From Lutibacter sp. (GTDB taxonomy: Bacteria; Bacteroidota; Bacteroidia; Flavobacteriales; Flavobacteriaceae), in contig NZ_JABDRI010000036.1 of the NCBI RefSeq assembly GCF_013041805.1, forward strand, positions 1 to 64,000: 64,000 bases of DNA. Reading direction: 5' to 3'. Positions within the stretch are counted from its first letter, which is position 1. The number at the start of each line of letters is the position of its first letter. The notes under the pieces are model-generated. The model did no database searches and was not told the origin of the DNA. It was given only the letters and a program-made list of their open reading frames with translations. This document shows positions 47,723 through 53,311 of this stretch, piece after piece. Position numbers and translations under genes: made by a program.

Positions 47723-48475
47723 CTAACCTATCCAATTTTTAAAATCTTTTACACGCTCTCTACTTACAATTATTTCCGATTCGTTATAACTATTTAACAT
47801 AAGTTTCAAGCGACTATTTGAATAAGAGACTATATCTTTAATCGCATTTATGTTTACAATATATTTACGACTTACTCTATAAAAATACTCAGGCTCTAAA
47901 ACATCCTCTAATTGTTCCAACGTATCTTCAATTAAATAGTTTCTATCATTATTTGTATGAATGTTTGTTGCTTTATTTTCACTAAAGAAACATTCAATTG
48001 TATCAGTTGGAACCATTTTTAAATGTTGTCCAATTTTTACTGTAAATCGTTTTTTAAAATTCTTTTCTGTAGGAGCAATTAATTTTTTAATTTGTTCAAA
48101 ATCAAATCCAGGATTTAATGTTGCACTCTGTATTTTTTTATATTGATTCACAGCATTTTCTAGTTCGTCAGTATCAATAGGCTTTAGCAAATAATCTATA
48201 CTATTTAATTTAAACGCTTTTAATGCATACTCATCATAAGCTGTGGTAAAAATAATTGCACTTTTTATTTCTACTTCTTCAAAAATCTCAAAGGATAATC
48301 CATCCGAAAGCTGAATATCTAAAAATATTAAATCAGGATGTTGATTATTATAAAACCAATTAATAGATTCATTTACAGAATGTAACATTGCAATAGGTTC
48401 TATTCCTAAGTCATTAAGCATTCTACTTAATCGGCGAGCAGCAGGTTTTTCATCTTCTATAATTACAACTTTCAT
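47723..48475 (-). CDS. LytTR-family response regulator
   Basis: A 250-residue response regulator. The receiver domain (1-~120) has the acidic pair Glu7/Asp8, phosphoacceptor Asp53 in DLIFLDIQL, Thr in FTTAYDEYA and Lys in LLKPID. The C-terminal LytTR DNA-binding domain (~150-250) includes YFYRVSRKYIVNINAI and RERVKDFKNWIG. ATG 48475 (MKVVIIEDE) is the natural start; an ATG three codons upstream is possible. It closes an operon with a sensor kinase and 2TM proteins. A matching operator lies upstream of that operon. Confidence 0.93.
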   Translation of the reverse strand: MKVVIIEDEKPAARRLSRMLNDLGIEPIAMLHSVNESINWFYNNQHPDLIFLDIQLSDGLSFEIFEEVEIKSAIIFTTAYDEYALKAFKLNSIDYLLKPIDTDELENAVNQYKKIQSATLNPGFDFEQIKKLIAPTEKNFKKRFTVKIGQHLKMVPTDTIECFFSENKATNIHTNNDRNYLIEDTLEQLEDVLEPEYFYRVSRKYIVNINAIKDIVSYSNSRLKLMLNSYNESEIIVSRERVKDFKNWIG

Positions 48476-48503
48476 AGTGTACATATTTGCTTTTTAAAGA
48501 AAT

Positions 48504-48824
48504 CTACTCCCATTTATTAGTTCGATCTTTATCCATAAGTTGTTTTATTTTTCGATCTTCCCAGTCTTTGCCCAAAATAACATCTATTCCAAACACACTA
48601 AATGCATGAAACGCCAATCCTATTCCCCAAAATATTGCTGTACTATAAGATTGCCACTCCCAAAAGGCTTCCCAATCTCCAGTAGATATGAATCTAGACC
48701 CTAAAATAAAACCATTAACCACAAGGTAAACCAATAAATGTGAATAGAAACCTTTAATAGATTTTACCTTCTTTTTTGCTCTTACATATTGTTGTTCTTT
48801 TGTATAATTATTGTTTTCCATCAT
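48504..48824 (-). CDS. 2TM domain protein (2)
   Basis: A 106-residue protein consisting of one 2TM domain: a Lys-rich YVRAKKKVKSIKGFY helix, two membrane helices (~28-48 and 62-84) and the conserved tail GKDWEDRKIKQLMDKD. It is homologous to the upstream gene product and to the C-terminus of the kinase. The ATG at 48824 lies one base after the stop of the previous gene; an ATG at 48839 would overlap it. Function unknown; the context points to signalling with the LytTR system. Confidence 0.85.
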   Translation of the reverse strand: MMENNNYTKEQQYVRAKKKVKSIKGFYSHLLVYLVVNGFILGSRFISTGDWEAFWEWQSYSTAIFWGIGLAFHAFSVFGIDVILGKDWEDRKIKQLMDKDRTNKWE

Positions 48825-48825
48825 C

Positions 48826-49122
48826 TTAAAATTTAGCATTCTTATCTTTATCCATAATTTCTTTTATTTTACGTTCTTCCCAGTCTTTCCCAAAAAGTAG
48901 ATCATTACCAAAAACTCCAAATGCGTGAAAAATAATTCCAATACCCCAACCAAACATAGGCCACCAAAACCAATAATAACTTGGAGAAGTCATATAATTT
49001 ATAAAGAATAAAAAAGGTATTACTAAGCAATAGGCTAGTAAATTTGCATAAAATCCTTTAATGTTATCAACTCTTTTTTTTGCTCTAATATATTTGTCTT
49101 CTTCTGTATATTCTGTTCTCAT
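48826..49122 (-). CDS. 2TM domain protein (1)
   Basis: A 98-residue 2TM-domain protein: YIRAKKRVDNIKGFYANLLAY, two membrane helices, FGWGIGIIFHAFGVFG and GKDWEERKIKEIMDKD. It is closest to the C-terminal 2TM domain of the adjacent kinase. It is 30 bp after the kinase gene and one base before the next 2TM gene. A role as subunit or ligand of the kinase is an inference from shared domain and synteny. Confidence 0.85.
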   Translation of the reverse strand: MRTEYTEEDKYIRAKKRVDNIKGFYANLLAYCLVIPFLFFINYMTSPSYYWFWWPMFGWGIGIIFHAFGVFGNDLLFGKDWEERKIKEIMDKDKNAKF

Positions 49123-49152
49123 TGTTTATGTTTTTAAATTTATTTTTAACTA

Positions 49153-50496
49153 TTACTCCCAATATTGTTTTTTATCTTTATTCATAAACTCCTGTATTTT
49201 ACGCTCTTCCCAATCATTCCCAAGAAATGGATTATACGCGAACGCTTTAAATCCTTGAAAAATTAACCCTATTCCCCAGCCCATTGCAGGAAACCAAAAC
49301 CAATGAAATTGAGGTACATATTTTAAGTTTATAAATATTAAAAATGGAATTACTAAGCAATATGCTATTAAGCTTCCATAAAATCCTTTTATCTCTTCAA
49401 CGCGCTCTACCGCTTTACTATATCTGTTATATTGTTGTGTGTTTGATGTCTTCATAAGTGTTGTTTTTTGAGTTAATAGCGGTAATTTTACGGTGAAATC
49501 TTCCAATGTTTTTTCTACCACTACTTTTTTTAATGTTATTAAATTATAGCGTTCAATTATATTTTTTAATCCAACTTTTGTTCCTTGTTCTAAAATTTTT
49601 TTGGGCTTAAAGTTGTTATTTACTATTAAAAAACCATCTTCTTCATGAATAACCACTTTTAATGGATTTTCTTCAGAAACTACATTGTGCTTGATACTGT
49701 TTTCTAAAAGTAATTGCAATGACAAGGGAATAATTTTAAGTTCTGAATTTGAAGCTGCCTCTGGTATTTCAAAAGTTACTGCATTTTCAAAGCGCATTTT
49801 TAATAATTCCATATACGTTTTAGCAAAATGTAATTCTTCGTCTAAACTTACTAAATCTTTACTTTTTTGTTCCAAAACATACCTATAAACTTTTGAAAGT
49901 TTAGTAGTAAATTTCTCCGCTTGAATAGGGTTTTCACCTATTAATGATGTTAATACATTCAAACTATTAAATAAAAAATGTGGGTCAATTTGACTCTTTA
50001 GCGATTCATATTTCGCAGTTTCTGTTTTAGCAACTATCTGTTGTTCTTTTACTTTGTCTTCAGTAAGTGCTTTGTAAAAATAAATTGAATGAAATACTAA
50101 ACTTATTATTAAGGTTATAACTAAACCGAATGTATAATAGCCAAAAGCATATTTATCATTTAAAAAATTATCTACTGGCTTTCCATTAATAAGTACTATT
50201 GAAATAAAACGTAAAAGCACTAATCCTATCATTGTAAGGGCAATAGATCCAGCAGCTCCAATTATTAATCTTTTCTTTGAATGCTTTTTCCAAGAAAATT
50301 TTGAATTTAAAAAATCATAAAAATGAGCGTTTATTAAAGTCAGAACGAAAGCATACATAAAATGAATACTAAAAACTTTAAACAACTCGTTTGCATTTAA
50401 ATTAAATCCGTTATTTGTTAAAGCGCGCTCAATAATAAAAACTATAAGTGCTATAAGTATAGAAATTTTAAATATATATTTGATATGCGACTTCAT
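49153..50496 (-). CDS. LytS-type histidine kinase fused to a C-terminal 2TM domain
   Basis: A 447-residue protein. Four N-terminal membrane helices (~8-140) are followed by a coiled linker and a His_kinase domain with phosphoacceptor His173 in SQIDPHFLFNSLNVL, the N-box at QLLLENSIKHN (Asn266) and a G-box at VGLKNIIERY. From ~357 a complete 2TM domain is added (NRYSKAVERVEEIKGFYGSL, two helices, GNDWEERKIQEFMNKD). The ATPase domain is short, as in LytS/AlgZ types. The partner regulator is the LytTR protein at the end of the operon. Confidence 0.9.
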   Translation of the reverse strand: MKSHIKYIFKISILIALIVFIIERALTNNGFNLNANELFKVFSIHFMYAFVLTLINAHFYDFLNSKFSWKKHSKKRLIIGAAGSIALTMIGLVLLRFISIVLINGKPVDNFLNDKYAFGYYTFGLVITLIISLVFHSIYFYKALTEDKVKEQQIVAKTETAKYESLKSQIDPHFLFNSLNVLTSLIGENPIQAEKFTTKLSKVYRYVLEQKSKDLVSLDEELHFAKTYMELLKMRFENAVTFEIPEAASNSELKIIPLSLQLLLENSIKHNVVSEENPLKVVIHEEDGFLIVNNNFKPKKILEQGTKVGLKNIIERYNLITLKKVVVEKTLEDFTVKLPLLTQKTTLMKTSNTQQYNRYSKAVERVEEIKGFYGSLIAYCLVIPFLIFINLKYVPQFHWFWFPAMGWGIGLIFQGFKAFAYNPFLGNDWEERKIQEFMNKDKKQYWE

Positions 50497-50524: not shown

Positions 50525-50956
50525 TTAAAACTTAATTTCTAAAGATATATCTTTATCTGCAACCTGAAACTTTGAACTATCGAATTGTGGAGGACCAAAA
50601 TTCATCGGGTTATTTGAAGTACCATAACTTTCTTTTGGCATTCCATTTTCTTGAAAATCCATTTGATCATTATTATTTTCATCATGAAAACAAATAATAG
50701 CATAAGTTCCTGTTGGTACTTTTTCAAAAGTGACTATACTTTTCCCATTTTCAATAGAAGAGGATTTGGCAAATAAAGGTTGCTTTCTAAAATTTTCTTG
50801 AGTAAAAAGCGCAAAGTTAATTTTTCCATTATTATTTAAAACATTAGGAACAGTTACCGTAATAGTGTTTTCTGAATTATTTTCAGTTACTTCTTGTGCA
50901 TTTGACATAAAAATTACTGAAAAAACTAAGACAATTGTTAAAATTAAATGTTGCAT
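50525..50956 (-). CDS. DUF2141 secreted protein
   Basis: A 143-residue exported protein (signal peptide 1-20, SNAQ) with a DUF2141 domain: INFALFTQENF, GTYAIICFHDENNNDQMDFQENGMPKESYGTSNN and a final beta strand. The acidic DENNNDQMDF stretch is typical of the family. Function unknown. It leads the operon with the 2TM kinase, 28 bp upstream of it, and lies downstream of a LytTR operator, so it may be both sensor accessory and target. Confidence 0.85.
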   Translation of the reverse strand: MQHLILTIVLVFSVIFMSNAQEVTENNSENTITVTVPNVLNNNGKINFALFTQENFRKQPLFAKSSSIENGKSIVTFEKVPTGTYAIICFHDENNNDQMDFQENGMPKESYGTSNNPMNFGPPQFDSSKFQVADKDISLEIKF

Positions 50957-51037
50957 TGTTGTTGATTTAAATTAATATTATTTTTTGTTTACTCAACAAA
51001 TATCTATGAAACTTGGCTTGAAAAAAATTTAAATAAC

Positions 51038-51067
51038 CTGAACTGTAATTTTAATAGGATGAACTGT
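51038..51067 (-). promoter_or_regulatory. LytTR operator: two 9-bp direct repeats, 12-bp spacer
   Basis: On the minus strand ACAGTTCAT (51067-51059) and ACAGTTCAG (51046-51038), separated by 12 bp. Both fully match the LytTR consensus [TA][AC][CA]GTTN[AG][TG] with the required 12-13 bp spacer. They lie 82 bp upstream of the DUF2141 start, in the gap divergent from the EF-G2 gene. Confidence 0.72.
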
Positions 51068-51202: not shown

Positions 51203-53311
51203 ATGAAAATATACGATGATAAACACATTAAAAATGTTGCCTTTGTAGGAGCTCATAAAAGCGGAAAAACCACATTGGCTGAAACAATGCTCTTCGAAGC
51301 TGGATTAGTCAAACGCCGTGGTAGCGTAGAAAACAAAAATACTGTTTCCGACTATCACGAAATTGAGCAAGAAAGAGAAACTACCATTTTTGCCACTCCC
51401 CTTCACACTGAATGGCGCAATTACAAAATAAACATTATTGACACTCCTGGCTTAGACGATTTTATAGGCGAAATCGCCTCAACTATGCGTGTAGCAGATT
51501 CAGTTGTTACGTTAGTAAACGCGCAACATGGAGTTGAAGTTGGTACTGAAATTATTTGGAATTATGTAGATCGTTTTTCTCGTCCAACACTTTTTGTTAT
51601 CAATCAAATCGACAGTCCAAATGCTGATTTTGATGAAAGTTTTAAAAGCATCGTAGATTTGGTTGGAAACAACGCTATTAAAATACAGTTTCCATTAGTA
51701 ATTGATGGTGCACAATGTATAATTGATGTACTCAAAATGAAGATGTACAAATTTGGACCTGAAGGTGGGAAACCTGAAAAGTTAGAAATTCCTGCTGACC
51801 AAATAGATCTTGCTAATGAACTACATAATGAATTAGTAGAAAAAGCTGCTGAAAATGATGAAGAGTTAATGGAACTTTATTTTGATAAAGGTACTCTTAA
51901 TGAAGATGAAATGCGAGAGGGAATTAAAAAAGGAATGTTAAATCATGAATTATTTCCAGTTTTTTGTATTTCTGCATTAAACGATATGGGTAGTGGAAGG
52001 TTAATGGGATTCATAGATAATGTAGCTCCTTCTGCAGCTGATTTAAAGGCTGAACAAAGTGTTGAAAATGAAACTATTGAATGCAAAGTAGACGGACCAA
52101 CATCCTTATTTATTTTCAAAACATTATATGAACCAAACTTGGGTCAAATAAGTTTCTTTAAAGTAAAATCAGGAGAAATTAAACAAAATGATAAGCTTGA
52201 AAATTCGAGAAATGACGAAACTGAGATTTTAAATCAGCTTTATATTATAAATGGTAAAAATCGTGAACCTGTAGAAAAATTAAGCGCAGGTGATATAGGA
52301 GCAACATTGAAATTAAAGTATACTGAAACCAATGACACTTTAAGAACTAAAGGTTCTAATATAACTATTAAACCAATTAATTATCCTTCTTCAAGAATTA
52401 GTAAATCAGTAAATGCTGTTGATAAAAACGATGAAGAAAAACTGAATGAAGCTCTGAAAAAAATTCATAGTCAAGATCCAACTGTAATTATCAAATATTC
52501 GAAAGAATTGAAACAGCAAATTTTATCTTGCCAAGGAGAATTACATTTAGCAACAATAGATTGGACATTGAAAAAGTTATACGGTATTGAAGCTAGTTTT
52601 GAACAACCAAAAATTACATATAGAGAAACTATTCAAAGATCTGCAACAACCAGTTACAAACATAAAAAACAATCGGGTGGATCTGGTCAATTTGGTGAAG
52701 TTCACATAAAAATTGAACCTTATTTTGAAGGTATGCCGGAGCCAGAAGGTTTTAATATTAGAGGTAAAGAAGAAGTAGAATTAGATTGGGGTGGAAAATT
52801 AGTATTCTACAACTGTATAGTTGGTGGAGTTATTGATACGCGCTATTTACCTGCTGTTCTAAAAGGAATTTTAGAGGTCATGGAAGAGGGGCCTTTAACA
52901 AAATCATATGCAAGAGATATTAGAGTTATGCTATTTGATGGTAAAATGCACGCTGTAGATTCTAATGATATTTCATTCAAAATTGCGGCGGCTCACGCAT
53001 TTAAAGATGCTTTCTTAAATGCAAAACCTAAGTTACTTGAGCCAATTCATGAGCTTACTGTTAAAGTGCCTGAAGAGTTAATGGGTAATGTGATGACCGA
53101 TTTACAATCACGTAGATCTATTATTTTAGGTATGGACAGCGATGGAAAATACCAAACTATAAAAGCTAAAACACCATTAGCTGAAATGTATAAGTATTCA
53201 ACTACGTTACGTTCAATAACTCAAGGAAGAGCAAGTTTTAGTACTAAATTCTCAAGTTTTGAATTAGTACCTAATAATGTTCAAGAGGAACTGATTAAAA
53301 AAGAGGCTTAG
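51203..53311 (+). CDS. EF-G2-type elongation factor G paralogue
   Basis: A 702-residue translation GTPase with all EF-G domains. The N-terminus (IKNVAFVGAHKSGKTTLAETMLFEAG; G1 at 16-24) and KRRGSVENKNTVSDY resemble the Bacteroides EF-G2 group rather than canonical FusA. In switch II, canonical DTPGHVDF is DTPGLDDF (80-87), so the catalytic His is Leu84. Switch I has ERETTI in place of ERGITI, and G4 is NQID. Bacteroides EF-G2 lacks GTPase activity and supports translation in starvation. A housekeeping fusA should lie elsewhere in the genome. Confidence 0.88.
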   Translation: MKIYDDKHIKNVAFVGAHKSGKTTLAETMLFEAGLVKRRGSVENKNTVSDYHEIEQERETTIFATPLHTEWRNYKINIIDTPGLDDFIGEIASTMRVADSVVTLVNAQHGVEVGTEIIWNYVDRFSRPTLFVINQIDSPNADFDESFKSIVDLVGNNAIKIQFPLVIDGAQCIIDVLKMKMYKFGPEGGKPEKLEIPADQIDLANELHNELVEKAAENDEELMELYFDKGTLNEDEMREGIKKGMLNHELFPVFCISALNDMGSGRLMGFIDNVAPSAADLKAEQSVENETIECKVDGPTSLFIFKTLYEPNLGQISFFKVKSGEIKQNDKLENSRNDETEILNQLYIINGKNREPVEKLSAGDIGATLKLKYTETNDTLRTKGSNITIKPINYPSSRISKSVNAVDKNDEEKLNEALKKIHSQDPTVIIKYSKELKQQILSCQGELHLATIDWTLKKLYGIEASFEQPKITYRETIQRSATTSYKHKKQSGGSGQFGEVHIKIEPYFEGMPEPEGFNIRGKEEVELDWGGKLVFYNCIVGGVIDTRYLPAVLKGILEVMEEGPLTKSYARDIRVMLFDGKMHAVDSNDISFKIAAAHAFKDAFLNAKPKLLEPIHELTVKVPEELMGNVMTDLQSRRSIILGMDSDGKYQTIKAKTPLAEMYKYSTTLRSITQGRASFSTKFSSFELVPNNVQEELIKKEA

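Follow-up and report, generated by a model that had tools for sequence, protein, structure and literature searches.

The pair of direct repeats at 51038-51067 on the minus strand of the window (the whole 64,000-nt stretch of Lutibacter sp. contig NZ_JABDRI010000036.1, GCF_013041805.1, positions 1-64,000) is, judged from sequence, very probably an operator at which a LytTR two-component system with a small envelope regulon activates its own operon. It is part of a composite promoter that is fixed across the sampled Flavobacteriaceae, occurs there only in regulator-bearing genomes and is common to the promoters of unrelated genes.

The repeat pair and its conservation

The distal half-site, box 1 (ACAGTTCAT, 51059..51067, minus strand), is separated by a 12-bp spacer (CCTATTAAAATT, 51047..51058, minus strand) from the promoter-proximal half-site, box 2 (ACAGTTCAG, 51038..51046, minus strand); in many relatives CC comes next after box 1, at the start of a spacer with an A-rich middle. 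LytTR regulators are said, after Nikolskaya and Galperin, to bind pairs of [TA][AC][CA]GTTN[AG][TG] with spacers of 12-13 bp. Both repeats fit this consensus and the spacer falls within its range. The two 9-bp minus-strand direct repeats, 12 bp apart and free of mismatches, were thus found as the first-pass annotation had described them, and the 82 bp that it gave as the distance to the operon fits the 81 bases measured to the DUF2141 ATG at 50956. The 12-bp form of the pattern has a single match in the 64-kb window, at 51067-51038 on the minus strand, and in 100 dinucleotide shuffles of the window it has a mean of 0.07 matches, with at least one match in 6 of them. Across the whole genome (2.81 Mb) the same consensus with a 12-13 bp spacer yields 7 matches against 10 for the reversed control, so that by itself it does not discriminate genome-wide and the case rests wholly on comparison with relatives. 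Its use as a genome scan was dropped for the same reason. One of its matches, an ACCGTT pair at G000:C89:86771 (L006), was rejected, being located downstream of two convergent reading frames with no same-strand gene behind it. The genome scan for the same pair that had been proposed earlier does succeed with family-derived boxes (ACARTTCRK-N12-ACARTTCRK), for which the window pair is the sole match with fewer than 2 mismatches, but with the quoted consensus it performs no better than its control.

The comparison covered 30 kinase loci from 199 Flavobacteriaceae genomes and 80 named loci. From these 110 loci, L009, L066 and L067 were removed as duplicates and L057 as too short, leaving 106, with residual overlap between the two sets possible. 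With a two-box matrix whose spacer was fixed at 12 bp and whose training set was 28 Lutibacter-type loci, 102 of the 106 loci show the element on the operon strand at or above the threshold of 15 bits (28/28 trained, 74/78 held out). Among Markov nulls modelled on these regions, 7 and 3 of 2200 sequences reach this threshold under two seeds, with maxima of 21.0 and 16.9. In a run with another seed one null of 2200 reached 30 bits, and this single sequence accounts for the p-values of 0.0005 obtained there. Weaker versions are found in L024 and L027 (11.1 and 11.8 bits), with the same spacer and with TTTG exactly at +37. No element is found in L028, whose locus start lies 13 bases downstream of a strict-pattern site in its genome, or in L113, whose locus start falls within the kinase gene.

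The consensus of the matrix loci is ACA[A/G]TTCATCC-N10-ACA[A/G]TTC[A/G]G. At position 4 of both boxes A is commoner than G among relatives, and the window has G in both; strict GTT is therefore not the conserved feature. Of 102 loci, only 8 match the quoted LytTR consensus in both boxes and 46 in one, so that the strict GTT boxes noticed at first are present in the window but are not what the relatives conserve, and a search that requires strict GTT can miss LytTR operators. Per-column information forms islands at positions 1-11, in the A-rich part of the spacer, at 22-30, at the TTT of 41-43 and at the -7 element of 64-71, with variable stretches between them. The expectation that boxes and 12-bp spacer would be kept while the flanks vary is borne out by this pattern and by the 102 of 106 loci.

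The operon and its presumed regulator

The first gene of the presumed operon (minus strand throughout) encodes a DUF2141 protein of 143 aa (50525..50956; PF09912, 1.4e-30), followed by a histidine kinase of 447 aa with a C-terminal 2TM domain (49153..50496; PF06580, PF13239), a 2TM protein of 98 aa (48826..49122; PF13239), a second 2TM protein of 111 aa, or 105 aa from the ATG at 48821 (48504..48839; PF13239), and a response regulator of 253 aa with receiver and LytTR domains (47723..48484; PF00072, PF04397), the presumed binder. Neighbouring genes of this set are separated by gaps of at most 30 bases or overlap, which suggests a single operon. Three consecutive 2TM domains lie within 48504-49440, one fused to the C-terminus of the kinase and two as free proteins that are perhaps tandem duplicates; among relatives neither the 2TM matches nor the regulator keep a constant place. 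Kinase and receiver-LytTR regulator both lie behind the site, and 76 of 80 relatives likewise have a regulator homologue within the locus. On the plus strand a divergent EF-G-like gene (51203-53311) shares a 246-base gap with the operon, and the boxes are located 135 bases before its ATG. This gene is found in just 27 of the 80 loci while the element persists, indicating that the element goes with the operon and not with EF-G.

Of 199 Flavobacteriaceae genomes, 105 contain the strict search pattern and 1 contains its reversed control. A regulator orthologue was scored as present at a best E of 2.4e-56 or lower (153 genomes) and as absent at 5.6e-35 or higher or with no match (46 genomes). Strict sites are found in 105 of the 153 genomes with the orthologue and in none of the 46 without it (Fisher p 4e-19, kinship not corrected; 96 of the 105 site-bearing genomes were entered, and the 46 regulator-less genomes and their zeros were read by eye from per-genome tables). 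Regulator presence tracks genome size and kinship in part, 33 of the 46 regulator-less genomes having rounded sizes of 2.2 Mb or less, and 48 of the 153 regulator-bearing genomes contain no exact strict match. In a class-wide draw the strict pattern is present in 10 of 14 genomes of the family. Neither of the 2 further genomes from the order has it, and of 379 genomes from the rest of the class 11 do, against 3 for the control. Two genomes of the same class and another family (f53), G527 and G754, have sites like the Flavobacteriaceae form, with CATCC ending box 1, and these may be true operators.

The window genome encodes eight LytTR proteins, the operon regulator and seven others, and one could suppose that the operator is real but is read, alone or jointly, by another of them while the operon's regulator acts elsewhere; HdrR and BrsR of S. 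mutans can share targets, according to the excerpted text of PMC6193735. Such a division of labour is unlikely. Among the regulator-less genomes of at least 2.6 Mb the strict site is found in 0 of 13, despite 2 to 12 weaker regulator matches in each, and an alignment of 73 operon regulators shows common LytTR-domain residues that few or none of the seven paralogues in the window genome possess. Taken with the co-occurrence and with an element that follows the operon, these regulator-specific residues make the operon's own regulator the most likely predicted binder.

Promoter geometry and direction of control

The TTT of a predicted -33 element (51025..51027, minus strand) lies 10 bases after box 2; across 102 loci its three positions have T at frequencies of 99, 97 and 91%. 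The predicted -7 element, GATATTTG (50997..51004, minus strand), carries TTTG exactly 37 bases after box 2; the weak -7 candidate proposed by the first-pass annotation does exist, two bases away from the 51006-50999 at which it had been placed. A start-site study of F. psychrophilum locates TAnnTTTG at -12 to -5 in the excerpted text (PMC9723704). If this rule is applied here, transcription would start at 50992 (minus strand), the boxes would occupy -75 to -67 and -54 to -46, with the centre of the element near -60. The whole layout reads box, 12 bp, box, 10 bp, TTT (-33), 24 bp, TTTG (-7), with the repeats just upstream of the predicted -35/-33 element. TTTG stands exactly at +37 from box 2 in 96 of the 102 operon loci (68/74 held out), with TTTA in the remaining 6, and in 87 of 110 strict-search sites, while mononucleotide shuffles have any TTTG within a 14-base window in 4.8% of cases. 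This exact geometry upholds the activator position earlier ascribed to the boxes. A sigma-70-type promoter scan was uninformative here, with 16 sites against 21.7 in shuffles.

Where the TAnnTTTG consensus begins with T, the -7 elements of the 102 operon loci have C (52 loci), G (29), T (17) or A (4), and 86% of aligned strict sites have G or C there. The departure from T may mark a weak promoter that needs help. In the mechanism proposed, the two boxes, roughly one helical turn upstream of -33, would be bound side by side by the phosphorylated regulator, which would then help RNA polymerase to start at promoters whose -7 element usually has C or G for the first T of TAnnTTTG. The outcome would be that the kinase/2TM/regulator operon feeds back positively on itself and that a few envelope genes, those for DUF2141, the DUF2807/GIN lipoprotein and the TonB receptor, are activated along with it.

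Direction of regulation is not directly readable from sequence, and the regulator might instead repress the operon from this site; the 17 of 102 operon loci that keep T as the first base of -7 also count against activation. Negative autoregulation is distinctly unlikely all the same, for the boxes lie entirely upstream of -33 at a fixed position, 81 of 102 loci have C or G as the first base of -7, and known LytTR regulators activate from such positions: in the excerpts of the respective sources, AgrA activates P2/P3 from repeats centred near -60 (PMC4227749) and HdrR activates from repeats just upstream of -35 (PMC6193735). That the boxes serve the divergent EF-G-like gene, in whose shared gap they lie, is very unlikely, as the element persists in loci where that gene is not found and the -33/-7 spacing points toward the operon. 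A chance match to a loose consensus, for which the comparison with the reversed control would speak, is scarcely credible against retention in 102 of 106 loci with the exact 37-base spacing.

The predicted regulon and related systems

At least 150 strict-search sites were found in the family, and the figures that follow hold among the matches listed. Sites were considered operon-proximal when they lay on the same strand, either no more than 6 kb ahead of the kinase start or immediately after the gene, distance being taken to the best kinase match only. By this definition 71 of the 150 listed sites are operon-proximal and 79 lie elsewhere. First genes were recorded for 110 of the listed sites, including all 79 non-proximal ones. 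Behind the latter are found DUF2807/GIN (28), DUF2141 or TPR, mostly DUF2141 (27), TonB receptors (10), DUF4440-like secreted proteins (4), DUF2306 (3), 2TM (1), singletons (5) and no clear ORF (1); DUF2807 (GIN) lipoproteins, DUF2141/TPR proteins and TonB receptors thus account for 65 of the 79, and six sequence clusters for 73. Clusters were named from the Pfam match of one member each (DUF4440 below cut-off), DUF2141 and TPR by BLAST to one query each. Most target genes begin 80-130 bases beyond the first base of box 1. Because the element also stands before other envelope genes, it is better seen as a regulon site than as a site of pure self-control: the operon control of itself proposed by the first-pass annotation is supported by the comparison, but not as the only role of the site.

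Three F. succinicans loci (L266, L282, L287) contain three strict sites within about 3.2 kb, before TPR-like, DUF2141-like and TonB-receptor-like genes, as if forming a clustered regulon. In Lutibacter agarilyticus (L284 1603-2628) a strict site is located at the gene of a beta-lactamase-family (PF00144) protein, and a protein with a similar N-terminus lies behind a site in L226; this protein is a possible further regulon member. Among 12 named Lutibacter genomes, 9 contain one strict site, one (L041) contains two, and two (L043, L050) contain none, their operon site being found by the matrix outside the strict pattern.

The window genome itself has three DUF2807 genes, one of them with a candidate site (G000:C37) of 12.1 bits, with TTTG exactly at +37 and the ATG at +92; 99.9% of 300-base nulls score below 10.5. 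The site has 3 mismatches, and a composite search allowing at most 3 finds this and the operon site only, against 2 matches for the reversed control. In the same scan two other loci, L298 and L178, reach 13.1 and 12.1 bits, both without TTTG at +37. Given the two control matches and these scores, as high as its own or higher, the candidate rests on its DUF2807 placement and +37 spacing, not on rarity. The DUF2807 lipoprotein gene lies directly behind that of a PspC-transmembrane/ToastRack protein (L297 1450-3493, on G000:C37), a pairing that recalls envelope-stress systems. No close relative of the TonB receptor was found in the window genome, the best match having 29% identity to a 432-residue N-terminal part of the query. 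The regulon predicted here from sequence for this genome comprises the operon and one DUF2807 lipoprotein reached via a weaker site.

Several known systems resemble this arrangement in part. LytTR regulatory systems (LRS), in which a transmembrane inhibitor is paired with a LytTR regulator, have operons with 9-bp repeats, mostly 12-bp spacers and a strong bias to a position 10 bp upstream of -35, as described in the excerpted text of PMC6193735. HdrRM and BrsRM of S. mutans share with the present system the 9-bp direct repeats, the 12-bp spacer, the 10-bp distance and membrane proteins in the operon, and their repeats too can depart from the published consensus (PMC6193735, excerpted text). 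The positive autoregulation described for LRS in the same excerpts (PMC6193735) has a counterpart here that is predicted from genes and sequence. Identity with LRS was discarded, however: besides the putative membrane partners there are a partner histidine kinase and, in the regulator, a receiver domain, which place the arrangement among LytTR two-component systems. The agr P2/P3 promoters of Staphylococcus aureus likewise have two direct repeats upstream of -35, near -60, and suboptimal promoter elements, with the difference that their weakness lies in a long -35/-10 spacer and that of the present promoter in a -7 element usually without the first T (PMC4227749, excerpted text). Unlike in agr, no peptide quorum circuit is seen here. 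AgrA also has a receiver domain, and from its box sequence the present boxes differ in that A outnumbers G at position 4. LytS/LytR and BtsS/BtsR pair kinases of the PF06580 type with receiver-LytTR regulators, as does this operon, and the two best curated models for its regulator are LytR and BtsR, both below cut-off; the 2TM domain fused to the kinase, the two free 2TM proteins and the leading DUF2141 gene set it apart. When F. johnsoniae was coevolved with Burkholderia thailandensis, two genes with consecutive locus tags, one for a LytTR regulator and one for a histidine kinase, were hit by mutations in 5 of 5 lines, the regulator in 2 and the kinase in 3, according to the excerpted text of PMC10197871; they may be the orthologous pair.

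LytTR operators of this kind are already known, while the envelope regulon is apparently undescribed; an earlier description of operator or regulon was not recognised in the open-access literature. An ancestral LytTR/2TM system may, on a tentative and rather doubtful reading, run a compact envelope regulon of the Flavobacteriaceae (DUF2141, GIN lipoprotein, a dedicated TonB receptor, TPR, DUF2306) through a rigid composite promoter, with 2TM proteins as membrane brakes on kinase or regulator, a cross between two-component system and LRS that in Lutibacter-type genomes would have shrunk almost to self-control. For a family in which regulation has been little studied, the comparison places DUF2141, 2TM, DUF2807/GIN and DUF2306, all families of unknown function, under one predicted regulator with a promoter layout exact to the base, and this shared predicted regulator makes their function testable.
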